From: Pomphorhynchus laevis
Taxonomy: Eukaryota; Acanthocephala; Palaeacanthocephala; Echinorhynchida; Pomphorhynchidae
Direction of reading: 5' to 3'
DNA length: 64,000 nt
NCBI GenBank assembly: GCA_012934845.2
Contig: WNNJ02003654.1
Span: 226,636 to 290,635 of the forward strand
In this document: positions 2,690 to 63,949 of the stretch, one piece after another
Layout of the letters: each line of letters opens with the position of its first letter
How positions within the stretch are numbered: the stretch's first letter is position 1
The notes under the pieces: generated by a model
Database searches by the model: none
What the model was told of the DNA's origin: nothing
The model's input: only the letters and a program-made list of their open reading frames with translations
Position numbers and translations under genes: made by a program

Positions 2690-3440
2690 CTTAATAGCTG
2701 ACGTTGTGACTAATAAATAACAGACGTTGTATCAGAATAAGGATTAGAGGTCATCAGTGGGAAGTACTATGCTATCAGGTTTCGGCCCCTTACTACTCTA
2801 CCCAACATAACAGCGGGGCAAAATACATGCTAATGATGTATTTCCTATGAAATAACTATCTAGTATCTTATTCTAATACAAAGTATATTATTTATTATCC
2901 ATCCATAAAAATTTGCCACTTAAGAGTTTAAATTTATTCTTCATATTATTGTGTTGATATATATTTTACTATTTTCTGCTTGATGTTATTTTTATAGTAA
3001 CCTAGTTTAAAATATGTATCTATTAAATTATTTAAATGATTTTGAAGAAAGCCAATATCATTACATATTGTTGCAATTCTTAAAATTTCATTATTTAATG
3101 TATTATATTTTATATTATATGGTATGCATGAATGCTCATGCAAAAATATGTTTCTTGTAAATTTAAATATGTCATCTTTACGATATAAATTAATAGTAGT
3201 TTTAGCTAATGTTAATTTAATGTTCATATCTAGATAAACACCTTTTTTATCATTAATATTGGTTTTGTTAAGAATAAAGCTTTCTGGATAAATGTGTTCA
3301 CTAATTGAATAAAAATTATTAGAATTAAATACACATATATCATCAATGTATCGAAACATATATTTCATATATTTATATTGTTTAGATTTAGTTTTTAGAT
3401 TTAGTTTTTGTACAGACATTTATTCTGTGAATTTATTGGC
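2690..3440 (-). pseudogene. Naiad-type PLE copy a: RT palm/thumb and 3' end
   Basis: This minus-strand copy of the second PLE type carries RT motif 5 (FRYIDDICVFN, about 3330-3360), then YPESFILNKTNINDKKGVYL, a YRKDDIFKFTRN block, HEHSCIPYNIKYNTLNNEI, and a C-terminal RT/thumb segment ending near 2946. The frame is open for 157 codons, so this part is among the best preserved. Downstream on the minus strand (2690-2945) lies the conserved 3' region with CTGATGA, CCGAAAC and ACAACGTCTGTTATTTATT motifs shared with the copies ending near 5625 and 29345. The 5' half of the element is absent. Confidence 0.75.
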
Positions 3441-18597: not shown

Positions 18598-20049
18598 TAA
18601 TGAATGATCAGATTCTAAATCCTCACCGATCGGCAAGGATTTTGTAAGCTCCGGCTTATTACTGTACTTTTTAGAGTTATTTCTTTGTGATCGCTGATAT
18701 TCTTCGCTATCATGTTCATGCGATCCATGAGCGTTGCTGTGACCACTATCTTCCGATTCGGTTGATGTATTCGCGGCCGCGGTGGTGGCGGTTGTAATGA
18801 ATTCGTTATTTCTTCGAACCATGTTTGAGCAACTCTTCAAAATTGATGCGATATTACTTCTTTTATTCGTAATTAAGTGATTAGTGGTATTTGTTGTCGC
18901 TATCATTTGTACTGCCGATGGTGCGTCGTCATGTTGATCATGCTCAACACCTTGAACATAAACAACATTGTCGGGTAGTATAAGATCATCACACATGTTG
19001 AGTAACTGATGAATGATCTGGTTGAGATGATCATTACAATTGTCGGGTGTATGATCGGCAACACTAGATTGGCTGTAATTCATCGTGGAAATTTAGGTTT
19101 TACCATTGTCAATCATAGTTTCTTCTTGGTTACTACTCGATGATACAAAGAAAGGCGCAGCAGATTCGTCGGCACCGGGTTCGTTGATAGAACCAGAAGC
19201 AAATTTTGCAAATTCATTCGATGGATTGCAATCAAGCCCATATTTAGGATCATATGATGTAAATGACATCATTGGTATTGTTGAATTGCTGTTAAGTATA
19301 AATGATGACGATTCAAACTCCAATCCCTGTTGAGATGATCTTTTTAATTTTATCGTCAAGTTATCATTATCCTTGATTGGACAACAACTTAGATTATTGA
19401 ATTCGTTCATTTGATTATTATTTATTTGCATATCATTACTAGCTAAGGGATGCATTGAACTCTGATGCAGCTCACCAAGTTGTTGGATCTTATTTATTTG
19501 ATCGGTAACTTGTCCTGTCGGTGCATTAGCAGACATCAATAGATGACTTTCAGCATCAGTTGTAGTTGCACAATAAGTAAATATCATTTCTTTTTCGAAA
19601 TCTGTTTGACCGTAGTCCGACGATTGCTTTCTAACTTTGGTAAGAGATTTGGCTACATCAGTATCGTCATTATCGTCGACATTAAGCTGGGAATGATGAT
19701 GCTGAAAAACATCATTAGTAGCATCGAATGGAGTATCGTGCTTAGTGATATTGGCAGGAATGTCATCGTTACATTGAGACGCATGCTTGTTTATCGGTTC
19801 ATTATCTGCGACTATCGTAGAAGTGGCGCTTACAGCATTATGCTCAGTTTCAATTGATCTGGAGTTATATGTATCACAACGTCTAGTCATACAGGGTAGT
19901 CTTATCACATCACGAGTTCGGCTCGAAGCACAAGTGTCTGGCTCGAAGAGGCGTTTCCCGGATTCACCTGTTTCCTGGTGTCCACCATCAAATGTGGATA
20001 TTGGGATCTGATCAAGTGACGCTAGCATTGCTTTGGCGTTGCCTCTCAT
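18598..20049 (-). pseudogene. Host-like low-complexity gene copy with one in-frame stop
   Basis: The minus strand reads from an ATG at 20049 to a natural stop at 18598 in one frame, about 480 codons, interrupted only by a TAA at about 19093-19095. Composition and codon use differ from all surrounding element debris. The product is polar and largely disordered: Asn, Ser, Thr, His and Asp rich, with DQIPISTFDGGHQETGES near the start, SSDYGQTDFEKEMIFTYC in the middle, an HHHSQLNVDDNDDTD stretch, and a C-terminal part with NYSQSSVADHTPDNC, ATTAAANTSTESEDSGHSN and a Lys/Ser-rich end. I do not recognise the family. The absence of introns over 1.45 kb and the flanking repeat ends suggest a captured or retro-copied gene, or one long exon of a decaying gene. 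The start is bracketed by an 18-bp inverted repeat, so the residues before this Met (to 20085) derive from the hairpin arm. Confidence 0.55.
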
Positions 20050-20077
20050 TATTGCAATAGAGAGGCAACGCCAAAGC
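20030..20077. repeat. 18-bp perfect inverted repeat at the gene-copy start
   Basis: GCTTTGGCGTTGCCTCTC at 20030-20047 is exactly complementary to 20060-20077, with a 12-base A/T-rich loop. The left arm is the gene's own first codons (MRGNAKA, antisense), so the right arm is an inverted copy of gene sequence made at the junction with the flanking repeat. Confidence 0.9.
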
Positions 20078-20216
20078 AAAAACAAAATGTTTTTGAATTA
20101 AACAAAAACATTTTCGTTTGTAGGAACTTCATCAAAAAACAACAATAAACAAAAACACTAAAAATGTACAACAAAAGTACAAAAAATATGTATTCATAAC
20201 ACAACAATAAAAATGA

Positions 20217-27585: not shown

Positions 27586-29345
27586 AAATTCTGATACAAC
27601 GTCTATTATTTATTAGTCAATTCATATTATTTAATATCTATATATATTCACTTTACTATATTAAAGATAAAAACTTGGAAAACTTATATATTAGATATAA
27701 TTAAACAGAAAATGAAAATAAGAAACAATTATAAGTGGAAAGATCATATGAAGAACTCACTAAAACTATTGATAAAGTTAGTAATAACTTTGTCTATATA
27801 TGCATAAGACTGTATTATTATATACTGATGAAAGAAGTTAATTATAATGAATTTAATGTAAGCGCAACATATGAACGTAGTGATTTAAGTTTAGAAACAA
27901 TTATCACAAGTCATTGTGTAAAACTGTATCTATATTATATTGGAATCCAAAATTACATAAAAATCCAATAAAACCTAGGTTCATATGTAGTGCGTTTAAA
28001 TGTACATTAAAACCACTTTCTGTTTATAATAATAAAATACTTTAAGTAATTAAAACACTTTAAAAAATATTTTAATCAACATTAATACTGCTATACAACA
28101 ATTTCAGTATTAATTTTACAACAGAATTTTTAGAACATACAAAATGAAAAATCTTTCAGAATATAAATACGTACAATTTTAGTACGCTTTATACAAATCT
28201 AAATTTAACAAATATTAAAAAAGCGTTAGAAAAATTAATTAATCTTATATTCGGAAAAAGATATACATCTATGTTATAATAACCATAATTCATACCTTAC
28301 GAAAATTAAACCATTTAGTAAATATAAATATATGGATAAAATTGAATTATTAGAATCCTTAAAAAGCGTTAGAAAAATTAATTAATTTTATATTGTTAAA
28401 AAAGATACATATATATGCTATAATAATTATAACGCCTATCTGACAAAAAATAAGACATCAAGTATATAAATATATGGATAAAATTAAACTAATAAAATCC
28501 TTAAGTATTTTGGATAAGTCACGATTTTTCAAAAGTAGAAACATCTTTATTTAGACAAATAATATATGCTCCAATGGAGGTAATGATAGCCCAATTATAG
28601 CTGACTTGTTTTTAAGCTTTATAGAATATGAATTTGTTCATAACTGTGTAAAAATTAAATCTAAACAATATAAATATATGAAATATGTGTTTCGATACAT
28701 TGATGATATATGTGTATTTAATTCTAATAATTTTTATTCAATTAGTGAGCACATTTATCCAGAAAGCCTTATTCTTAACAAAACCAATATTAATGATAAA
28801 GAAGGTGTATATCTAGATATGAACATTAAATTAACATTAACTAAAACTACTATTAATTTATATCGTAAAGATGACATATTTAAATTTACAAGAAACATAT
28901 TTTGCATGAGCATTCATGCATACCATATAATATAAAATATAATACATTAAATAATGAAATTTTAAGAATTGCAACAATATGTAATGATATTGGCTTTCTT
29001 AAAAATCATTTAAATAATTTAATAGATACATATTTTAAACTAGGTTACTATAAAAATAACATCAAGCAGAAAATAGTAAAATATATAAATCAACACAATA
29101 ATATAAAGAATAAATTTAAAATCATTGGCGGAAAATGTTAATATATGGATAAACAATATACATTGTATTAGAATATAATACTAGATATTCAAATTTTATC
29201 AGAGGAAATACGTCATTAGCACGTGGTTGGACTAGCTGCTAGTTGTGTCGAGGAATAGGTGGCGAAGTCTGAAAGCATTGCAGTTCCTCTTTATGACCTC
29301 TTATCTATATTCTGAAACAACGTCTGTTATTTATTATTCAATTGA
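27586..29345 (+). mobile_element. Naiad-type PLE copy d with matching terminal motifs
   Basis: The motif CTGATACAACGTCT(A/G)TTATTTATTAG occurs at about 27590 and again at about 29311, framing the copy like the pseudo-LTRs of PLEs. Inside, in order: ELTKTIDKVSNNFVYICIRLYY (27750-27820), YERSDLSLETIITSHC, fingers ILYWNPKLHKNPIKPRFICSAF-like (about 27930-28000), a decayed palm, motif 4 (GGNDSPIIADLFLSF, frame-broken, 28575-28620), motif 5 FRYIDDICVFN intact at about 28690-28720, and the thumb to 29141. An internal duplication (KALEKLINL region) lies at 28205-28400. The N-terminal GIY-YIG domain is missing. Confidence 0.75.
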
Positions 29346-30360: not shown

Positions 30361-30790
30361 ATTTGAGCATTTAAACATTTTTTGTTATAATTACAAAAGC
30401 TAATTATTAAGCAGCTTAGTGACAGTCGATTATGTATGAAACTGGTACTGATTGCCAATTTACATCTTATTAGAGCGGCCCAAGCAACGTATGTTCGACA
30501 TTTGTCGATCAACGGCTAAATAATTGGCCGGCTTTTATCAGCCATAGGGATAGTCATTTCATAGACTATTTCAGATCCCTTCGATGACTCCAACAGAGGA
30601 TTTAACAATGGACAAAAAGGCGGAAGAGTCACGGATTCCTGTTTCCTTAGAGTACCGATGCTGTAAGACTAAATTATCCTACTGTACTTTTAAGTAGAAT
30701 ACATTTACCTATCATTCAATTACAAAATGATGTAATGACTTATTGTTATTTTAATTATTGTTTACTTTTGTTATTTATTTATTTTTATTT
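30361..30790. other. Less AT-rich stretch upstream of the ribozyme array
   Basis: Base composition is more balanced than in the neighbouring sequence (GAGCGGCCCAAGCAACG, AATTGGCCGGCTT). No coding frame or known RNA is recognised. It may be the unrecognised flank of the retrozyme-like element that follows. Confidence 0.35.
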
Positions 30791-30828
30791 TTGTAAAACA
30801 TGTAAGCCAGACGCGAAAGAATGACGAA

Positions 30829-30907
30829 TACCGTTTCGTCATCACAATGACTCATCAGTGCCAAATCCCTCCCACTACTGGATGCAGAGAAGGACTGGCA
30901 GACGGCA
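30829..30907 (-). ncRNA. Type III hammerhead ribozyme, unit 1, intact core
   Basis: Minus-strand reading: stem III strand UGCCGU, then C17 (cleavage between 30901 and 30900). Stem I is UGCCA pairing UGGCA, with an inner CC..GG helix. Then come CUGAUGA, stem II GUCAU / AUGAC with loop UGUG, GAAA, and the stem III return strand CGGUA. All conserved core bases are present and stem III pairs fully (one G-U). This is the best candidate for activity. Confidence 0.9.
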
Positions 30908-31132
30908 ATCAATGAATGAATCAATGTGAATGATATACTAGAAAATTTTCTAGTAACATCATAGAGTACTAAATTAGTACTACAGCTTCACCAAAAAGGA
31001 TCATTAGCAAGAGCACTGGCAAATGCCAGCGCTGGTCTCTTTAATATCGGCTAACTTTTATTTAAGGAGAGTGAGACCATTCCGCGTGAATTTCTTGTAA
31101 AACATGTAAGCCAGACGCGAAACAATGACGAA

Positions 31133-31211
31133 TGCGGTTTCGTCATCACAATGACTCATCAGTGCCAGATCCCTCCCACTACTGGATGCAGAGGAGGACT
31201 GGCAGACGGCA
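31133..31211 (-). ncRNA. Type III hammerhead ribozyme, unit 2, one stem III mismatch
   Basis: The core CUGAUGA, GAAA and GUC is intact. The stem III return strand reads CCGCA instead of CGGUA/CGGCA, leaving one C-C mismatch inside the helix, so activity is doubtful but possible. Confidence 0.85.
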
Positions 31212-31436
31212 ATCAATGAATGAATCAATGTAAATGATATACTAGAAAATTTTCTAGTAACATCATAGAGTACTAAATCAGTACTACAGCTTCACCAAAA
31301 AGGGTCATTAGCAAAAGCACTAGTAAATGTCAGCGCAGGTCTTTTTAATATCGGCTAACTTTTATTTAAGGAGAGTGAGACCATTCCGTGTGAATTTCTT
31401 GTAAAACATTTAAGCCAGACCCGAAAGAATGACGAA

Positions 31437-31515
31437 TGCCGTTTTGTCATCACAATGACTCATCAGTGACAGATCCATCCCACTGCTGGATGCAGAGGAG
31501 GACTGGCAGACGGCA
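31437..31515 (-). ncRNA. Hammerhead ribozyme, unit 3, G12A core mutation
   Basis: Same fold as unit 1 with stem III perfectly paired (UGCCGU / ACGGCA). The GAAA box has become AAAA, and stem I has one mismatch (UGCCA / UGUCA). G12 is catalytically essential, so this copy is probably inactive. Confidence 0.8.
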
Positions 31516-31740
31516 ATCAATGAATGAATCAATGTGAATGATATACTAGAAAATTTTCTAGTAACATCATAGAGTACTAAATCAGTACTACAGCTTCACC
31601 AAAAAGGATCATTAGCAAGAGCACTGGCAAATGCCAGCGCTGGTCTCTTTAATATCGGCTACCTTTTAGTTAAGGAGAGTGAGACTATTCCGTGTGAATT
31701 TCTTGTAAAACATTTAAGCCAGACGCGAAAGAATGACGAA

Positions 31741-31819
31741 TGCCGTTTTGTCATCACAATGACTCATCAGTGACAGATCCATCCCACTGCTGGATGCAGA
31801 GGAGGACTGGCAGACGGCA
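31741..31819 (-). ncRNA. Hammerhead ribozyme, unit 4, G12A core mutation
   Basis: Identical core state to unit 3 (AAAA for GAAA), suggesting that units 3 and 4 arose by duplication of one mutated unit. Probably inactive. Confidence 0.8.
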
Positions 31820-32005
31820 ATCAATGAATGAATCAATGTGAATGATGTACTAGAAAATTTTATAGTAACAACATAGAGTGCTAAATCAGTACTACAGCTT
31901 CACCAATAGGATAATTAGCAAAAGCACTGGCAAATGCCAGCGCAGGTCTCTTTAATATCGGCTAACTTTTATTTAAGGAGAGTGAGACCATTCCGCGTGA
32001 ATTTC

Positions 32006-32095
32006 TTGTAAAACAGGAAGTCCTCCTCTGCATCCAGTAGTGGGAGGGATCTCGCACTGATGAGTAATTGTGATGACTCATCATTGCCAGATCAT
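32006..32095 (+). repeat. Truncated inverted hammerhead unit
   Basis: Plus strand: CCTCCTCTGCATCCAGTAG, then CACTGATGAGT and a stem II hairpin. The sequence breaks where GAAA should follow (TCATCATTGCC). It is a partial unit in the opposite orientation to the array and marks the array's end. Confidence 0.75.
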
Positions 32096-44835: not shown

Positions 44836-45970
44836 AAAAGGAATAAGAAAAATTGTATAGTTTGTGATGTTATAAATAATAATAATTGTATTGTAAGTAA
44901 TACGACAAACAAATGTTTTTCATTAAATATTAATAATAATTGTAACTGCAATACCGCAGGTGTAGTGTATCTAATACAATGTACATGTGGATTGTAATAT
45001 ATAGGAAAAAGATATCAAATGTTAAAAACTAGGTTTAGGCAACACATATATAATATACAGCATAATAGTCAAACTATATTTCATAGACATATGAGATTAA
45101 TAGGACATGATATTAAAAACTGTAAATTATTTATTTTAGAACATATTATCGAAGAAAACATATCAATATTAAATCAAAAGCTATTAGAAAAAGAAGATTT
45201 TTTGGATTGAAAGGCTTAATTGCATGTACCCATTAGAATTGAATGACGTGGTACAAGGAATTAGCAGAAGTAGTATAGTACATAATAAACAACTATATTA
45301 TAATAATTCGGTTAAACGCAAACCAAGAAGTCATGGTGATTTAAGGAATAAGAAAAATAGACTTAAAAATATTAAAAAAGATATGTATAAAAATGAACAA
45401 TTAGAAATATTAAAACAACTTTTAAAAGATAATAAGCTGAAAGATCTTTATGTAAATATAAGAAGTTTTTCTAAAAATATCATTTGTTCAATAAATCAAA
45501 AATTAATTAACGACTATAATAGGCTGAGTTGTATAATAGACAGTTATTGTAATACAAAATACTATAATCGTACAATAAATGTTAATAATAACAATAGAAA
45601 ATATGCATTAACCATAAACTTCATTAATAAATGTATAGATAACATAAATATAGCCGGACTTTTAAATAATTCTAAAAGTAAAGAAATAATAGGGTCAGAT
45701 TTAAGTAAATATATTCTTAAAATAAGGTATAAACTCCAACCATCATTAGGACGAAAAATTTGTAATTATAATAAAGAATTAAAATCAATATGTAACGATA
45801 ATATTAGAAACATAATGGAAACAGAATGCAATTGTAAAAGTCTTAGTTTTGATAAAATAAATGAACATATATGTACCCATAATCTAGAATTAATTGAAAA
45901 TTGTGAATTAATAAAGTTGCTATTAAAAGGGTATAAATATAGATTAAATAATAACAACAACAAAAATTAA
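44836..45970 (+). pseudogene. Naiad-type PLE copy f: N-terminal GIY-YIG endonuclease and linker
   Basis: This is the 5' half of a PLE polyprotein in which the endonuclease precedes the RT. A cysteine-rich lead (KNCIVCD, then CNCNTAG) runs into the GIY-YIG core GVVYLIQCTCGL, then YIGKRYQMLKTRFRQH (44956-45060), HMRLIGHD, and the Glu-bearing LEHIIEEN. Two lesions are visible: a TAA at 44995-44997 just before YIG, and a one-base excess in the T run at 45198-45203. After that the frame continues as WIERLNCMYPLELND in the 248-codon ORF from 45224. That ORF is rich in Lys/Asn and near its end has CNCKSLSF, INEHICTHNLELIEN and LLKGYKYRL. These C-x-C, H-x-x-T and KGxKYR blocks link endonuclease and RT in Naiad-type elements as I know them. 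The catalytic residues look present. Confidence 0.8.
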
Positions 45971-45999: not shown

Positions 46000-47760
46000 T
46001 GATTACTTTAGTAAGCTGATTAATAGTGAAAGCTCGAATATATCTAAGATAAACATTTAAAAAGATAATATATTTGATAAAAATTATAAATAAAATGAAA
46101 ATAACAAACAATTACAAAAAGGAAATATAAAATTAATAAAGATATGTTTAAAAAACTAACTAAATTAAAGGATAACTATATAATAACAACTACTGATAAA
46201 GCTAGTAATAACTTTATCTTCATATGCAAAAAGCTTTTTTATGATATACTAATAAGAGGTTAATTCTAATGATTTAAATGTAAATCCAACATATATAAAA
46301 AAGATTCATTTTTATGTGGAAAATGCGTGCCGGCGCGCGCTTACATGGCCACAACAAATAAACAACAATCAAAGTCATGTGTAGAGAAGGTGGGATCGGA
46401 AGAGGTATTTGAATGTGATACAGGTGAGGGCGGATTAGACGTCGAGATGGAGCTTATTCCAGGCAAGATTGAGGCGACGAGGAAGGGTCGGAGACCGTAA
46501 ATGTTGGAGTAATTCGGAAAGTAGAATAAGATGGAATGATGGGAACGCAGCGATAGAGAAGTTGGGCGAGTGTCGTTTAAGAAAGGGAATTTAATGAACG
46601 ATGAGAAACTAACAGAAATGAACGAACATATGAACGTAGTGAGTTGAGTTTAGAAACAATTATTACAAGTCACTGTTCTATAATAGATAAAAAGGGTATA
46701 AAGGTTGAATCAGATAATAAAACTATACCTATATTATATTGGAATCCAAAATTACATAAAAATCCAATAAAACCTAGGTTCATATGTAGTGCGTTTAAAT
46801 GTACATTAAAACCACTTTCTGTCTATATGAATAAAATACTTATAGTAATTAAAGCACACTTTAAAAAATATTGCAAGGTAATCGAAATTAATACTGGTAT
46901 AAAACACTATTACATTATTAATTATAAAAAAGAATGTTTAGAACAGACAAATGGAATAAATTTTCAAAATATATATACATACGATTTTAGTAGGCTTTAT
47001 TCAAATCTAGATTTAGTAGATATTAAAGAAGCGTTAGTAAAATTAATTAATCTTATATTCGGAAAAATATATACATATATATGTAATAATATTTATAACG
47101 CCTATCTAACAAAAATTAAACCATCAAGTAAATATAAATGTATGGATAAAATTGAATAAATAGAATCCTTAAATATTTTGATAAATCAAAATTATTTAAA
47201 AGTTGGGACATCTATATTTAGACAAATAAAAGGTGTTCCAATGGGTGGGAATAGTAGCCCAATTATATCTGACTTTTTTTAAACTTTATAGAATATGAAT
47301 TTGTTTATAACTGTGTAAAAACTAAATCTAAACAATATACATATATGAAATATATGTTTCGATACATTGATGATATGTGTATTTAATTCTAATAATTTTT
47401 ATTCAATTAGTGAACAAATTTATCCAGAAAGCCTTATTCTTAACAAAACCAAAATTAATGATAAAGAAGGTGTATATCTAGATATGAACATTAAATTAAC
47501 ATTAACTAAAACTACTATTAATTTATATCGCAAAGATGACATATTTAAATTTACAAGAAACATATATTTGCATGAGCATTCATGCATACCATATAATATT
47601 AAATATAATGCATTAAATAATGAAATTTAAGGAATTGCAACAATTTGTAATGATATTGGCTTTTTTCAAAATCATTGGTATAATTTAATAGGTATATTTT
47701 TTAAGCTAAGTTTCTATAAAAATAAAATCAAACAGAAAATATCAAAAATTAATTTAAACT
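46000..47760 (+). pseudogene. Naiad-type PLE copy f: reverse transcriptase
   Basis: This continues from the GIY-YIG half. LTKLKDNYIITTTDKASNNFIFICKKLFYDIL lies at about 46150-46250. An unrelated 330-bp insert (46295-46624) follows, and then ELSLETIITSHC. The fingers (IPILYWNPKLHKNPIKPRFIC at 46727-46790) and motif A-like YTYDFSRLYSNLDLVDIKEAL (46978-47040) come next. Motif 4 is FRQIKGVPMGGNSSPIISDL (47217-47275) and motif 5 FRYIDD (47358-47374). A 2-bp loss right after YIDD, a TAA at 47157 and a deletion near 47277 break the frame. The thumb continues (NNFYSISEQIYPESLILNKT) to about 47630. From 46859 onward everything is mirrored in the right palindrome arm. Confidence 0.8.
46295..46624 (-). 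mobile_element. 330-bp insert in the PLE RT, flanked by AACATAT
   Basis: AACATAT at 46288-46294 and 46625-46631 flanks a stretch much richer in G+C than the host element (GTGCCGGCGCGCGCTTACAT near 46329). Copy d has a single uninterrupted AACATATGAACG at the same point, so this is an insertion with a 7-bp target duplication. The minus strand reads ELLQHLRSPTLPRRLNLAWNKL, a stop, then SALTCITFKYLFRSHL, resembling the C-terminal end of a CR1/L2-type ORF2 followed by a short 3' UTR. That assignment is tentative. Confidence 0.55.
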
Positions 47761-50304: not shown

Positions 50305-50520
50305 ACAGTAAAGCCAAGATTTCCTGGGGGGAAATCTTGGCTTTACTGTAAGCCAAGATTGGGGGTGGTAAGGAATAATACCACCTCCAATCTTCGTGGG
50401 GGTGGTAAGGAATAATTACATTCAGTAAATACTCAACAACTATTGGAATCGTATTAGCGCTCATTGGAATTACTGACCTATTAGCGCTCATTGGAATTAC
50501 TGACTGAGACATAATAAACA
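50305..50520. repeat. Perfect foldback plus short tandem repeats
   Basis: TTACAGTAAAGCCAAGATTTCC at about 50306-50327 is inverted after a short G-run as GGAAATCTTGGCTTTACTGTAA. It is followed by two GGGGGTGGTAAGGAATAAT copies and by two 27-base tandem copies beginning ATTGGAATTACTGAC and ending TATTAGCGCTC. The G-run in the foldback loop is where the two palindrome arms differ in length. Confidence 0.8.
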
Positions 50521-55674: not shown

Positions 55675-57768
55675 AATTAGCATTGGAATTAGAAGCCTTT
55701 GATAGCGTCGACAAGATTTCGCTACTGCACATTGTTGTTTATTATGTCTCAGTCAGTAATTCCAATGAGCGCTAATAGGTCAGTAATTCCAATGAGCGCT
55801 AATACGATTCCAATAGTTGTTGAGTATTTACTGAATGTAATTATTCCTTACCACCCCCACGAAGATTGGAGGTGGTATTATTCCTTACCACCCCCAATCT
55901 TGGCTTACAGTAAAGCCAAGATTTCCCCCAGGAAATCTTGGCTTTACTGTAATTTGTGGACCTTGATATAATGTTTTGTTATTTTCTTTTCTGCTTGAGA
56001 TGTTTTTTTTGCCTTTTTTATTCACAATGAACATAAATACAAGCTATGATTAAGATCATATTACGGTGTTATTCAGTTTCATTTAAACTAAGGAAAAATA
56101 TGGCATTTATTAAAGCAAGCTATTCATTTATTTCAGATGTAAGTTGCATTAACGTTAACATTTCTATTTTAATTTGCTACTCTACCATGAATCATATTCG
56201 AGTTCATCATTCAGTATGTTATAAAATAAATAAAATTTTAAATGCACAAAAGTTTACTTATTTCAAAGAGTATAACTACAGAAATTTACAAAGAACGGTA
56301 AATTTATATATCGTGCCACTATATGGAACTATATATCGTTTATTTCTTTTTCTTTTTAATTTTAAAGGAACAACAAGACATGAGTAAAAAGATTTAACGA
56401 TTTTATTCAGTTTCATCTTAACTAAAGAAAATGTATTTATTATAAACGTAAGGTGGGTTTACATTTTTATTTAAATTAGCTTCTTCGAAATGAATCAATT
56501 TACAGTTTTTTATTCAGTATAAAACAGAAACTTATAAATTCACAAGGTTCACTCTTTGTTAAGGAGTACACATATAGAAATTGTCAAGATAAGGTAAATT
56601 CAAGTATATATTGTAAATATATACTATTATTTATTTCGAGTACATCTACAAAATTCACAAGTACGGTAAGTTTATAGATCATGTCACTGGATAAAACTTT
56701 ATAGTGTTTTATCGTTCCGCTATTTATGCTTATTTTATATTGTTAATAACTAAATCACTACTGATCGTAGAGGTTGACCGATCCATGACTGCCCTATCGA
56801 CATCAGGAATTATATCGTAGATACTATTCTTGTTTAAACTGGTTAACATTTCATGTAAAAACGCAGATTTTAATAAGTTCGACTCCATTCACCTAGGCGC
56901 TCCCTGAATTAAAAAAATCGAAATGCAATAATATATTAATAAATTTGTTCTTTTCTCTGAATGAGTATTTGTCAATAGTGACTGTTGTTACAAGCAATCA
57001 CTGACAATAAAATAGAATTAAAAAATATGCAGAATATATTCATTATTTTTAAGGTATGAAATCTAAGTGGAAAATTCTCTTTAGATGAGATCAGAAGATG
57101 TTAAAATACTGGAAGGAACATGATGAGCTTTATGTGATTTTAACGTGTGAAGGTATAAATTACAACCCGTTTTAATAGTATTAAATATGTAGAGTTCGAA
57201 TAAGTAATACGATCAAAGTTAGTGCCTTAGCGAATATGTAAAATGTTCAATCGACGAAGCTGAATTAGAATACAGAGCACATCTTTTCCATTTATTTGAA
57301 ATATAAAGTTGTTGTATTTAATACGTTGACTGATGCACTGGCAATATTCAAATTTCGTAAAAGGTTTAAAAATCATTATGGCATGTCCCAAAACGCATTG
57401 ATGTTTTCAGATGAACAGGCTTGCTATTGAAATAAAAAGAATAAATAAATCAACCAACTAATCAGGTTATCTAATCCACAACTACCGTTTGCCAGCCGAA
57501 ATTATAGATACCATGCTTGCTTCAACTGGCTAACTGCATCAATCTTTACCAATCATATAAGCAAAATGAGTCTACTTATTAAAGTTAAATTACTAAATAA
57601 AATTAATTAGAAAATCAATTACAAAACTTAAATTAAAAATAAAGATAAATAATAAAAAATTATATAAGATATTCTATAATTTCTCAAACGAGGGTAATAC
57701 CATTTCGCGTGAATTATGTTTATAATCTCTTAAGCCAGACGCAAATTAATGACGATAGCAGTATTTGA

Positions 57769-60160: not shown

Positions 60161-61456
60161 TACGTTTACGCTGTGAGTTTTGTTAATACTTTTATTAAAA
60201 TATTATGTCGTTGTTTGATAAATATCAAATATACATAAATATCTTTAAATTTTTAAATAATGTTTATTCACCAAAATGCTTTTCCCAAGATGCCACTTTT
60301 TTATTTTTCAATTTTCAAATTCTTGTCTTTTACCGCGTCAAGTGTTCTAACCTTTTTTAAATGCTAAATTTATTTAATGTATCCCTTTAATTTTGTGCAT
60401 TTATGCCGATAGTGTATAAATATTTATATTATTTATGTAAATATTATCACTAATAACGGCAATGGTTTTGTTGGTAGTCACGGTGTATGGAATTAGAAGT
60501 CATGAAGATGGGATTTTGTAGCTGGTTTTCAATGCTTAATTCACCTTGTGTGACCTAGCAACTATTATGTATAATATACAAATTACAATACAAATATTGC
60601 AATATTCTCAAGTTATACCAGGTTCGATAAACGGATGTTCTGGGATACAGCCATACTTCAATTAAGTGTGTAGCCTTCTAACAACGCTATTTTCCAGTTG
60701 CCGTCTTGTCTTATAATCTACAATGCCATGATAAATTACTGCAGGGCTATTAACTACTGTAGCCTTCCAACAACGCTATTTTCCAGTTAACGTACGGTCT
60801 TATCATCTACAATGCCATGATAAACTACTGCAGACATAGCCCCGATAGCACTACTTGTTAATGCTCTTGCTGTTTTTAAAAGCTCGCATTTTTTGCAGTG
60901 TTTATCGCCTTACATCCGTTATATTCACGTGTTCGCGATTTTTATAGAATCCGTCTAAAATTTCGATTTTGCGTAAACCACACCAAGTTTTGGTATTTTA
61001 TTCACCGCTTGTATCGAACACGCAGCCTTATCACGCTGTACACGATTAATCAATAGATACTGTACAGGACAACTGTCACGAGGTCTTCGGGCTTTTGTTT
61101 CTAATGGCGTTAAAGTAATTCTTTGCGCTTAGATTTACGTTAAATTGTGAATCTATTATCATCTTTCCGTAGCTATTTTAAAAGAGATGTGACTGCAATA
61201 TTCTTAACTGTTCTTCAAAATATACTTGTTTTGAAGAACAAGAATATATTTCTTGTATTTTTATATCCTCATTAAAGATGAATTGCGTTTGACTGAAGGC
61301 AGATGGAAGCTGTATAAGAGAATGTACAACCATGGGTGAGGTGAACTACATCTATTTGCTGCAAGTGTGCGCCCAATAATCTAAAAAACTAAAAGCATAC
61401 GTAATCAAACGCAAACACAATACGTTTGATTATATTAAAACGATGTAGTATTATAC
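60161..61456. other. Intergenic sequence with an 89-bp tandem duplication
   Basis: No gene recognised. TAGCCTTC(T/C)AACAACGCTATTTTCCAGTT and ACAATGCCATGATAAA(T/C)TACTGCAG occur twice, starting at 60671 and 60760. Inverted repeats TGTTCTTCAAAA / TTTTGAAGAACA (about 61209-61240) and TAATCAAACG / CGTTTGATTA (about 61401-61432) lie just before the array. Confidence 0.45.
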
Positions 61457-61618
61457 CTGCCGCATCCATTTAGGATCCAACGAGTGCAGCGACAATTCAG
61501 CAACAACCTATGCCTAGTGTTTAAGGATGGTCCGCACAGCAATTCGATCTGGTTAAGAGCGTAAGCCTCAGACAATTAAGCAAAGTGTCGGAAACGCCTT
61601 TATTCACAATGTCACACA

Positions 61619-61710
61619 GGCAACCGAAACGACTAGTGTGTACCTCATTCTACTGATGAGTGTTGCCGGATACTCATCATTTCGATGCTGAAGTGGTCGT
61701 CTAGAAGTGA
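61619..61710 (+). ncRNA. Strand-reversed hammerhead core, unit 1, intact boxes
   Basis: Strand Y: GGCAACC-GAAA-CGACUA (61619-61635). Strand X: UCAUUCUA-CUGAUGA-GUGUUGCC (61645-61667). Strand Z: UGGUCGUC, cleavage expected after C61701, then UAGAAGUGA. Helix II joins X to Y, helix III joins Y to Z (one U-G here where unit 4 has C-G) and helix I joins X to Z. All conserved hammerhead bases are present. Confidence 0.6.
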
Positions 61711-61998
61711 CATGGTGACTAAAAGTCGTGAATCGAAGTCCAGTCTATCAAGCAACACCATTTAGTATAAATGCCGTATTTCGTAAAAAATCCTGGACCG
61801 TTGTTTACTCAGCACATCCGTGCACTACTATTATAACTGCCGCATCCATTTAGGATCCAACGAGTGCAGCGACAATTCAGCAACAACCTCTGCCTAGTGT
61901 TTAAGGATGGTCCGCACAGCAATTCGATCTGGTTAAGAGCGTAAGCCTCAGACAATTAAGCAAAGTGTCGGAAACGCCTTTATTCACAATGTCACACA

Positions 61999-62090
61999 GG
62001 CAACCGAAACGACCAGTGTGTACCTCATTCTACTAATGAGTGTTGCCGGATACTCATCATTTCGATGCTGAAGTGGTCGTCTAGAAGTGA
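61999..62090 (+). ncRNA. Strand-reversed hammerhead core, unit 2, G5A
   Basis: As unit 1, but the CUGAUGA box (62033-62039) reads CUAAUGA. G5 is essential in hammerheads, so this unit would lack its own X strand function. The Y and Z strands are intact. Confidence 0.55.
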
Positions 62091-62377
62091 CATGGTGGTG
62101 AAAGTCGTGAATCGAAGTCCAGTCTATCAAGCAACACCATTTAGTATAAATGCCGTATTTCGTAAAAAATCATGGACCGTTGTTTACTCAGCACATCCGT
62201 GCACTACTATTATAACTGCCGCATCCATTTAGGATCCAACGAGTGCAGCGACAATTCAGCAACAACCTCTGCCTAGTGTTTAAGGATGGTCCGCACAGCA
62301 ATTCGATCTGGTTAAGAGCGTAAGCCTCAGACAATTAAGCAAAGTGTCGGAAACGCCTTTATTCACAATGTCACACA

Positions 62378-62469
62378 GGCAACCGAAACGACCAGTGTGT
62401 ACCTCATTCTACTAATGAGTGTTGCCGGATACTCATCATTTCGATGCTGAAGTGGTCGTCTAGAAGTGA
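62378..62469 (+). ncRNA. Strand-reversed hammerhead core, unit 3, G5A
   Basis: Same state as unit 2: CUAAUGA at 62412-62418, GAAA at 62385-62388 and GUC ending at 62460 intact. Confidence 0.55.
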
Positions 62470-62757
62470 CATGGTGACTGAAAGTCGTGAATCGAAGTCC
62501 AGTCTATCAAGCAACACCATTTAGTATAAATGCCGTATTTCGTAAGAAATCCTGGACCGTTGTTTACTCAGCACATCCGTGCACTACTATTATACCTGCC
62601 GCATCCATTTAGGATCCAACGAGTGCAGCGACAATTCAGCAACAACCTCTGCCTAGTGTTTAAGGATGGTCCGCACAGCAATTCGATCTGGTTAAGAGCG
62701 TAAGCCTCAGACAATTAAGCAAAGTGTCGGAAACGCCTTTATTCACAATGTCACACA

Positions 62758-62849
62758 GGCAACCGAAACGACCAGTGTGTACCTCATTCTACTGATGAGT
62801 GTTGCCGGGTACTCATCATTTCGATGCTGAAGTGGTCGTCTAGAAGTGA
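62758..62849 (+). ncRNA. Strand-reversed hammerhead core, unit 4, best copy
   Basis: Y: GGCAACC (62758-62764), GAAA (62765-62768), CGACCA (62769-62774). X: UCAUUCUA (62784-62791), CUGAUGA (62792-62798), GUGUUGCC (62799-62806). Z: UGGUCGU (62833-62839), C62840 and UAGAAGUGA (62841-62849). Helix III is 7 bp without mismatch, counting the A15.1-U16.1 pair. Helix II is 7 bp with one bulged U (62800). Helix I is 5 bp, a bulged G (62846), then 3 bp. An extra helix GUACC (62779-62783) / GGUAC (62808-62812) encloses strand X. Confidence 0.65.
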
Positions 62850-62982
62850 CATGGTGACTGAAAGTCGTGTTACGAAGTCCAGTCTATCAAGCAACACCAT
62901 TTAGTATTAATGCCGTATTTCGTAAGAAATCCTGGACCGTTGTTTACTCAGCACATCCGTGCACTACTATTATATATATTAG

Positions 62983-63230
62983 TAGTGCGAAAAATCGCTT
63001 GAAACTGTGGTCCAGGAGCCTAAACTGGCTAATATTGATTTAAAATTCATATGACTGCTAAAAAACTGGACTTCGATCATCAGCTCCATCAGTCTAATGT
63101 ATCACTCAGAGACGCACTTAACCACCTAGCAGTCATCGTCAGTCGGATGAAGTGGTTAGGGTTCGTTTCGACTGCTTTTGTGATAACTATAAAGACACCA
63201 GCAATTCCCCACGGTGCTAAACAAAACTAA
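62983..63230 (-). repeat. Diverged inverted relative of the 380-bp unit
   Basis: On the minus strand this shares the unit's end (GCACTACTA), CGAAGTCCAG and the positions of all hammerhead boxes with the array units, but overall similarity is low. The far end is not sharply defined; similarity fades beyond about 63200. Confidence 0.6.
63102..63175 (-). ncRNA. Diverged strand-reversed hammerhead core
   Basis: Minus strand. Y: GCAGUC-GAAA-CGAAC (63175-63161). X: UCAUCCGA-CUGACGA-U-GACUGC (63150-63129). Z: GUGCGUC, cleavage expected between 63111 and 63110, then UCUGAGUGA. Helix II (GACUGC / GCAGUC) is perfect yet differs in sequence from the array's. Helix I keeps the 5 bp, bulged G, 3 bp plan with one mismatch. 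Helix III has one A-G mismatch within six pairs. An extra helix UAACCAC / GUGGUUA (63119-63125 with 63152-63158) again encloses X. Confidence 0.6.
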
Positions 63231-63543
63231 GGTGCAGAAAGCGTTTGTACTGGCTTGCTGCGTGTGTGGACCTTCTAGTTATTCTTTATATGTACAAATG
63301 CGTATCCGTTAGTTACGAGGGCACTGAATTAATTAATAATTATTAATTATTTTTAGAATAAATTAATTATTATTCGTTAATTACGAGGGCACCTATTTAA
63401 TATAGTGCTGTCGGCTACCATCAGCTCGTCTAGGAGTGATAAGGAAATCTGCTCTACTTGTAATCGAACTCCATTTTTTGGCAACATCTACAATTATTAA
63501 ACTGAAGCCTATTACCTCTTTAAGCAACACCATTTAGTATATA
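63231..63543. other. Intergenic sequence with short A/T repeats
   Basis: TTAGTTACGAGGGCAC and TTAATTACGAGGGCACC (63309 and 63375) frame a duplicated AATTAATTATTATT stretch. No gene is seen. Confidence 0.4.
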
Positions 63544-63837
63544 TATAGTTGTTCCTAATAAGTAAACGGGGAAAACGGACATAACTTGGTATTGTTAACC
63601 ATCACAGTCCATCAGTAATCAAATCCCTAGACCGGTTTCTGCTTATTGAGCTTCATCAGTAGGGTTCAGATTTTAAGAGTGTTCAGAGATCCTCCACCAC
63701 AGTTTAGAAGGGTCCATCACAAGGATGAAGCTCAATAAGCAGAATCCGGTCTAGGGATTTGATTATTGATGGACTGTGATGGTTTCCAATACCCAGTTAT
63801 ATCCGTTTCCCCCGTTTACTTATTAGTAACAACTATA
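63544..63837. mobile_element. Foldback element with ~114-bp arms
   Basis: Bases 63544-63657 and 63724-63837 are inverted copies with about ten mismatches (TATAGTTGTT at both outer ends, GAGCTTCATC at the inner ends). The spacer is 66 bases. It is non-coding and probably a MITE or foldback transposon, but no target duplication was fixed. Confidence 0.7.
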
Positions 63838-63949
63838 ATGCCGTATCACTCTGCGATCCGGGGGCAGGCTGCAAATACATATATATAAGAGGATTAGTCA
63901 AATCGGCGTTGCTCGAGATTGTCGTGATGACAATTCTTTCAAAATATTA

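Follow-up and report, generated by a model that had tools for sequence, protein, structure and literature searches.

Tandem repeats of the acanthocephalan Pomphorhynchus laevis carrying predicted hammerhead ribozymes of the GCS strand order

The window analysed in this study is a stretch of 64,000 nucleotides from Pomphorhynchus laevis (GenBank assembly GCA_012934845.2, contig WNNJ02003654.1, positions 226,636 to 290,635 of the forward strand). Close to its right end lies a tandem array of four units of about 380 bp, referred to here as family A, within which no open reading frame (ORF) of at least 120 aa is listed. The coordinates of the array and of its parts are presented in Table 1. The units contain the three conserved strands of a hammerhead ribozyme, which Eckert, Friedrich, Weinberg and Weinberg (2023; PMC10085705) name the C block (CUGANGA), the G block (GAAA) and the S block (cleavage site). 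These strands pair in stem I (8 pairs with a bulge), stem II (7 pairs with a bulged U) and stem III (7 pairs), and the blocks of unit 1 (61619-61710) are identical to those of unit 4 apart from one U-G pair in stem III. An earlier reading made from the letters of the window (the sequence-only reading) had proposed the same three strands and helices, and both direct reading and a descriptor search confirmed them.

The order of the blocks within one unit is G, C, S in family A and in its relatives, families A', B, C and D. Hammerheads of types I, II and III follow the cyclic order C, G, S. This order is absent from single units, and CGS or GSC could be read only across two units, in keeping with the earlier proposal that the normal topology is restored across tandem units. 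The three helices cross one another pairwise, so that an ordinary nested structure cannot account for the keeping of all three. The motif had been described for each unit of the array. This is correct for units 1 and 4, which have an intact core; in units 2 and 3 the C block reads CUAAUGA, with the catalytic G5 changed to A, leaving only two of the four units in the window intact. The expectation that this change abolishes activity is taken from PMC10085705.

Table 1. Positions in the window of the repeats carrying predicted hammerhead motifs, and of their parts
Feature	Position	Strand	Details
Tandem array, family A, 4 units of about 380 bp	61449..62974	+	Tandem Repeats Finder, 98% matches
Unit 1, G block	61619..61635	+	GGCAACC-GAAA-CGACTA (stem II 3' side, core, stem III 5' side)
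Unit 1, C block	61645..61667	+	TCATTCTA-CTGATGA-GTGTTGCC (stem I 3' side, core, stem II 5' side)
Unit 1, S block	61694..61710	+	TGGTCGT-C17-TAGAAGTGA (stem III 3' side, stem I 5' side); predicted cleavage after 61701
Unit 2, GCS motif	61999..62090	+	CTAATGA at 62033 (G5 to A; expected inactive)
Unit 3, GCS motif	62378..62469	+	CTAATGA at 62412 (G5 to A; expected inactive)
Unit 4, G block	62758..62774	+	GGCAACC-GAAA-CGACCA
Unit 4, C block	62784..62806	+	TCATTCTA-CTGATGA-GTGTTGCC; as RNA UCAUUCUA-CUGAUGA-GUGUUGCC
Unit 4, S block	62833..62849	+	TGGTCGT-C17-TAGAAGTGA; as RNA UGGUCGU-C-UAGAAGUGA; predicted cut after C62840
Array 3' end	62965..62974	+	TACTATTATA, then TATATTAGTAG; one of the two preferred family A 3' ends
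Single family D copy	63102..63176	-	AGCAGTC-GAAA ... TCATCCGA-CTGACGA-TGACTGCT ... GTGGTTAAGTGCGT-C-TCTGAGTGA; profile match 63098-63224; pairs II 7, III 12, I 7
Family B-like fragment	63404..63545	+	S block and 3' end in common with family A
Four 304-bp tandem units, canonical type III (SCG) hammerhead	30787-32015	-	Cleavage base 30901, CTGATGA from 30858, GAAA from 30837

A descriptor that required the hammerhead boxes to connect with three stems, and allowed all six block orders, was run on both strands. With strict settings it gave three matches in the window, two of the GCS order (units 1 and 4) and one canonical SCG match on the minus strand near 30858, and no match in 60 dinucleotide shuffles of the window. 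The two GCS matches thereby confirmed the previously claimed order of GAAA, CUGAUGA and cleavage site. With loosened thresholds, 10 matches were obtained in the 60 shuffles, scattered over all six orders. Scanning of both strands with the descriptor revealed no opposite-strand hammerhead at the array. In 271,162 bases of fetched loci (with some overlap; L001-L008 overlap others) there were 210 GCS, 2 CGS and 1 SCG matches. Rfam gave no hammerhead match in the window, either at the gathering score or at E 5, an absence put down to the strand order and, in the case of the canonical SCG array, to its long stem I loop. A search of phage records gave no match, and a family-like pattern had 0 matches in genome_contigs and 0 in viral_contigs.

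A search of the 249-Mb genome with one family A unit gave at least 197 matches; all such counts are lower bounds, only the best candidates having been scored. The diverged relatives B, C, A' and D turned up in the flanks of the fetched arrays, and their own searches gave at least 40 matches for B, at least 41 for C and at least 41 for D (one D match being partial). Four GCS lineages (A/A', B, C and D) are present with at least 40 matches each, and their units measure about 380 bp in A, 360 bp in B, 357 bp in C, 348 bp in A' and 393-394 bp in D. A profile search of the window and of loci L009 onward, which overlap slightly, recovered 304 full-length core copies. By simple string tests, CUGANGA was present in 283 of these copies, GAAAC in 298 and CGUCU in 277. 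Parsing was obtained for 253 of the 304, and all but two of the parsed copies (251) had at least 6 pairs in each of the three stems, by a count that optimises pairing; H17 was C in 248 of the 253. CUGANGA, GAAA, the A15.1-U16.1 pair and H17 were found joined to stems I, II and III.

A TCACA motif located 1-2 nt upstream of stem II, before the G block, is conserved in the aligned A, B, C and D units. A near-identical array, whose immediate flanks match those at the end of the window, is present on another contig (C940:27500-32800, locus L009) and represents an allelic contig or a recent duplication. One copy (L060:1620-1730) might belong to a fifth GCS lineage: it has a fitting stem I (TAGTAGTGA/TCATACTA) and inner stem III, an A at H17 and a poor stem II. 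It is the sole poorly paired row in the group 'other', and was left out of the lineage pair counts and covariation rows.

Pairs were counted by script on a structural alignment of ten copies in which the gaps were placed by hand; an alignment made with MAFFT was set aside because the stem III gap of families B and C was put where the pairs misalign. Among the ten copies, 272 of 283 cells were paired and 15 of 29 pairs had changed on both sides. With a single copy kept for each of the lineages A', B, C and D, pairing was found in 111 of 113 cells and two-sided changes were seen at 14 of the 29 pairs (3 in stem II, 9 in stem III and 2 in stem I), with a core identity between lineages of only 38-52 of 67-68. 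Sliding a strand by 1-3 bases reduced the pairing from 96% to 22-54%. The observed percentage paired was reached in none of 2000 column shuffles of the ten rows, and the same was true for each stem. Identity among the A, B, C and D units was highest in the segments holding the blocks (G 0.84, C 0.75 and S 0.71), and was 0-0.55 elsewhere. Within family A, the C block was the least changed part, at 0.8% compared with 2.3% for the whole unit. Helix covariation and conservation of the boxes in a wider alignment had been named beforehand as a check on the motif, and the alignment provided both.

Some results weigh against a natural type-GCS hammerhead. The two-sided pair count for all stems was reached by 39 of the 2000 column shuffles of the ten rows, and the counts per single stem by 829 (II), 169 (III) and 952 (I), for which reason the percentage paired is considered the stronger statistic. 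In family A, conservation of the G and S blocks (2.2% and 2.9% changed) did not exceed that of the remaining unit. Furthermore, the full descriptor was passed by only 195 of the 304 copies and by 10 of the 44 in family D, the low rate in D being attributed to the 3 inner pairs followed by an internal loop that most D copies have and that the descriptor disallows. On balance, the comparison of lineages gives good support to the presence of a natural type-GCS hammerhead in these repeats, with a probability of about 0.88. Most likely these are working hammerheads which would process tandem transcripts.

The sequence-only reading had stated that no class with this strand order was described, which does not hold, as type GCS was already named in PMC10085705. 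The same paper describes the non-circular permutations SGC (583 predicted members, five of which cut in vitro), CSG (two members, both of which cut) and GCS. The last had a single candidate, GCS-1 from Caballeronia peredens, with an observed rate of 0.014 per min and no covariation, and its significance was called 'unclear'. GCS-1 and the present repeats have in common the G, C, S block order, the core boxes and the crossing of stems I-III. GCS-1 is one bacterial sequence located upstream of a predicted protein gene, whereas the tandem mobile repeats described here comprise four lineages, which show covariation and have a long stem III capping the C block (a comparison drawn from the description of GCS-1 in PMC10085705). 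Types SGC and CSG have the same reversed cyclic order read from another start, but differ in linear order and connections, and originate from metatranscriptomes (SGC) and metagenomes (CSG) rather than from genomic tandem arrays (PMC10085705). In the open-licence papers searched, none on type GCS was found beyond PMC10085705, which is cited by two structure-comparison papers (PMC11472068 and PMC13355120). Among the open-licence hammerhead papers listed for retrozymes, pseudoknots, Penelope or satellite DNA, none had the GCS order in its title or at the start of its abstract.

The search in PMC10085705 yielded one GCS sequence and left the biological relevance of the type open; at the sequence level, the four covarying lineages answer this and supply the comparative evidence that was formerly missing for the named class. 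This would bring the last of the six possible strand orders into those with comparative support, and would place non-circularly permuted ribozymes in tandem mobile repeats of a large genome.

The C block of A', B, C and D is enclosed by a stem III of about 12-15 pairs. The linkers from stem III to stem I (1 nt) and from stem II to stem III (2 nt) are constant in representative rows of these four families, two C copies in locus L064 that are one base short being the exception, and the linker lengths stay although the outer stem III sequence varies between lineages. Assembly of the active fold between neighbouring units is preferred because the long stem III caps its own CUGANGA strand with linkers of only 1-2 nt. 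Stems II and III of hammerheads stack end to end (PMC10085705), and an estimate from helix lengths suggests that a closed stem III could not easily reach round within one unit and would lie straight between units. The core alone folded as a stem III hairpin in four of the five families tested (A', B, C and D), and when a free C strand was added (cofolding) stems I, II and III formed in A' and C. The long hairpin of each unit (about 12-15 pairs) might display its own CUGANGA strand in the loop, the loop strand might complete stems I and II of the neighbouring unit in the ordinary hammerhead topology, and the end of the hairpin might clamp the outer ends of stems I and II. A circle of one unit could not easily assemble such a fold and would be shielded from further cutting. 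The odds that the active fold is assembled between neighbouring units are about even. It is proposed, more tentatively, that the ribozyme is an obligate multimer, in which each repeat hides its own catalytic strand and completes only the active site of its neighbour, daisy-chained along the tandem RNA. If so, the reversed strand order would act as a topological lock, by which multimers are cut and unit-length circles stay intact. The repeats would offer a concrete and cheap test of whether strand order serves to stop RNA circles from cutting themselves.

Several observations count against assembly between units. The family A core alone did not fold as a stem III hairpin, and one stem III strand of this family has a 16-nt insert that could relax a fold made in one unit. 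Cofolding of A, B and D with the C strand gave other or partial helices. Nested folding of two units placed the inter-unit hammerhead 10-16 kcal/mol above the minimum in all five families, and the inner stem III of the unit itself was paired in the two-unit minimum only for B; a loop-strand (kissing) complex with both stem III hairpins closed lies outside what this folding model can score. In addition, GCS-1 was active in vitro when made as a short transcript (PMC10085705), which leaves room for a fold within one unit. The alternative is thus a hammerhead acting in one unit as a compact pseudoknot, along the lines suggested by Eckert et al. for the GCS type. In such a fold stem III would open in part, the core taking only its inner 3-4 pairs and the outer part serving as a clamp of its own that bridges the stem I and stem II ends. 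This alternative has a fair amount in its favour while falling short of an even chance. The blocks lie close together (spans mostly of 58-77 nt), a closeness which assembly along a tandem RNA does not need; a bulge or internal loop separates the inner from the outer stem III in B, C and D; and the long stem III insert of family A would fit as well. Yet a mere 0-1 nt connects the inner part with the outer in B and A', where the two would need to sit at either end of the stack of stems II and III, and a rough estimate from helix rise indicates that the 1-2-nt linkers would make the geometry strained.

It is unlikely that the repeats harbour a former ribozyme or structured repeat which no longer cuts, with the motif conserved only through young, related copies. 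The mutated copies would agree with this, including the two of four window units that have lost G5, as would the retention of CUGANGA and CGUCU in 283 and 277 rather than all of the 304 copies; between lineages, however, conservation is highest in the three blocks, and two-sided changes have kept the helices paired. A chance assembly of hammerhead-like words put together by eye in a satellite, for which the 10 shuffle matches of the loosened descriptors might be invoked, is already contradicted by the lineage comparison, with the same architecture in four lineages, no strict match in 60 shuffles and a pairing of 22-54% for slid strands against 96%.

The ends of the arrays were scored. For family A, right ends accumulated at two offsets (27 and 20 of 60 scored), each followed by TA runs, and left ends were spread over 43 distinct offsets among 58. 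Two preferred right-end offsets were also seen in family B (4 and 3 of 14; a third offset had 2) and in family C (6 and 3 of 11), and family D had one cluster (8 and 3 of 18). The preferred ends lie ~62-71 and 127-144 nt downstream of the predicted cut. A partial inverted copy abuts the 5' side in 8 of 38 fetched loci (L010, L015, L018, L020, L021, L022, L035 and L044), and in L013 a 23-nt inverted piece abuts the 5' side of a copy. Penelope-like elements occur as tandem copies at AT-rich targets and carry a hammerhead; because their reverse transcription begins at favoured internal positions, the insertions have 3' ends in common (PMC11167929). The present repeats have internal 3' ends in common at AT-rich sites, together with 5' ends that vary and partial copies in tandem or inverted arrangement, and the array ends resemble the products of retrozyme-like or Penelope-like mobilisation. 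The reverse transcriptase that Penelope-like elements encode comes with a GIY-YIG nuclease, and their hammerhead is of the ordinary order (PMC11167929), whereas the present units are of about 350-390 bp and those in the window array have no ORF of 120 aa or more.

Metazoan retrozymes are tandem repeats of 150-450 bp, present in many copies, with a type I hammerhead that in some cases acts as a dimer; a cycle of cutting, circularisation and reverse transcription has been proposed for them, and their circular RNA has been shown (PMC7229834). The present repeats are likewise tandem, within 150-450 bp, in many copies, with a hammerhead and no long ORF; they differ in having the GCS order instead of type I (CGS). 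The proposal that they are non-autonomous retroelements of a retrozyme-like kind, with a natural type-GCS hammerhead as their ribozyme, is as likely to be right as wrong. In the corresponding cycle, a tandem transcript would be cut after C17 of every intact unit to give unit-length RNAs, host RtcB could close these into circles, and a Penelope-type reverse transcriptase would copy the circles onto AT-rich DNA.

The genome gave at least 75 GIY-YIG matches and one RtcB ligase match, candidate partners for this cycle. Four ORFs of the window, at 2946-3419 (-), 28555-28935 (+), 45188-45970 (+) and 46605-47159 (+), resemble by eye pieces of Penelope-type reverse transcriptase, without support from searches: Pfam gave no support for three of the four, and a homology search with the reverse-transcriptase-like ORF 46605-47159 gave no match. 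Pfam analysis of 7 window ORFs gave nothing above the cut-off, and a homology search with one possible host ORF gave no match.

Hammerheads of the ordinary order are also present in this genome. One unit of the 304-bp SCG array in the window passes the strict descriptor, and the array was not found by Rfam. At least 196 genome matches to this family were obtained (for example on C2662), in tandem, dispersed and with abutting inverted copies. Canonical type I (CGS) hammerheads were found at L039:1206-1243 (TGCAA-CTGATGA-GGCTTCTCAAAGCC-GAAA-CGGTACGCCGTC-TTGCA) and at L041:254-291, in loci which also hold GCS arrays. The occurrence of the type III family and of the type I loci in the same genome suggests that GCS is an alternative ribozyme, beside types III and I, within one kind of element.

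A large imperfect inverted repeat was seen by eye at about 63545-63840, with arms of ~100 bp, and may be a fold-back element beside the family B-like fragment. A match to SNORA13 (E 0.0095) at 20029-20147 (+) was below the gathering score of that family. The same two-copy 27-mer occurs at 50452-50504 and at 55752-55804, in opposite orientation and 5.3 kb apart, like the ends of a mobile element, with weak SCARNA21 matches near both sites.
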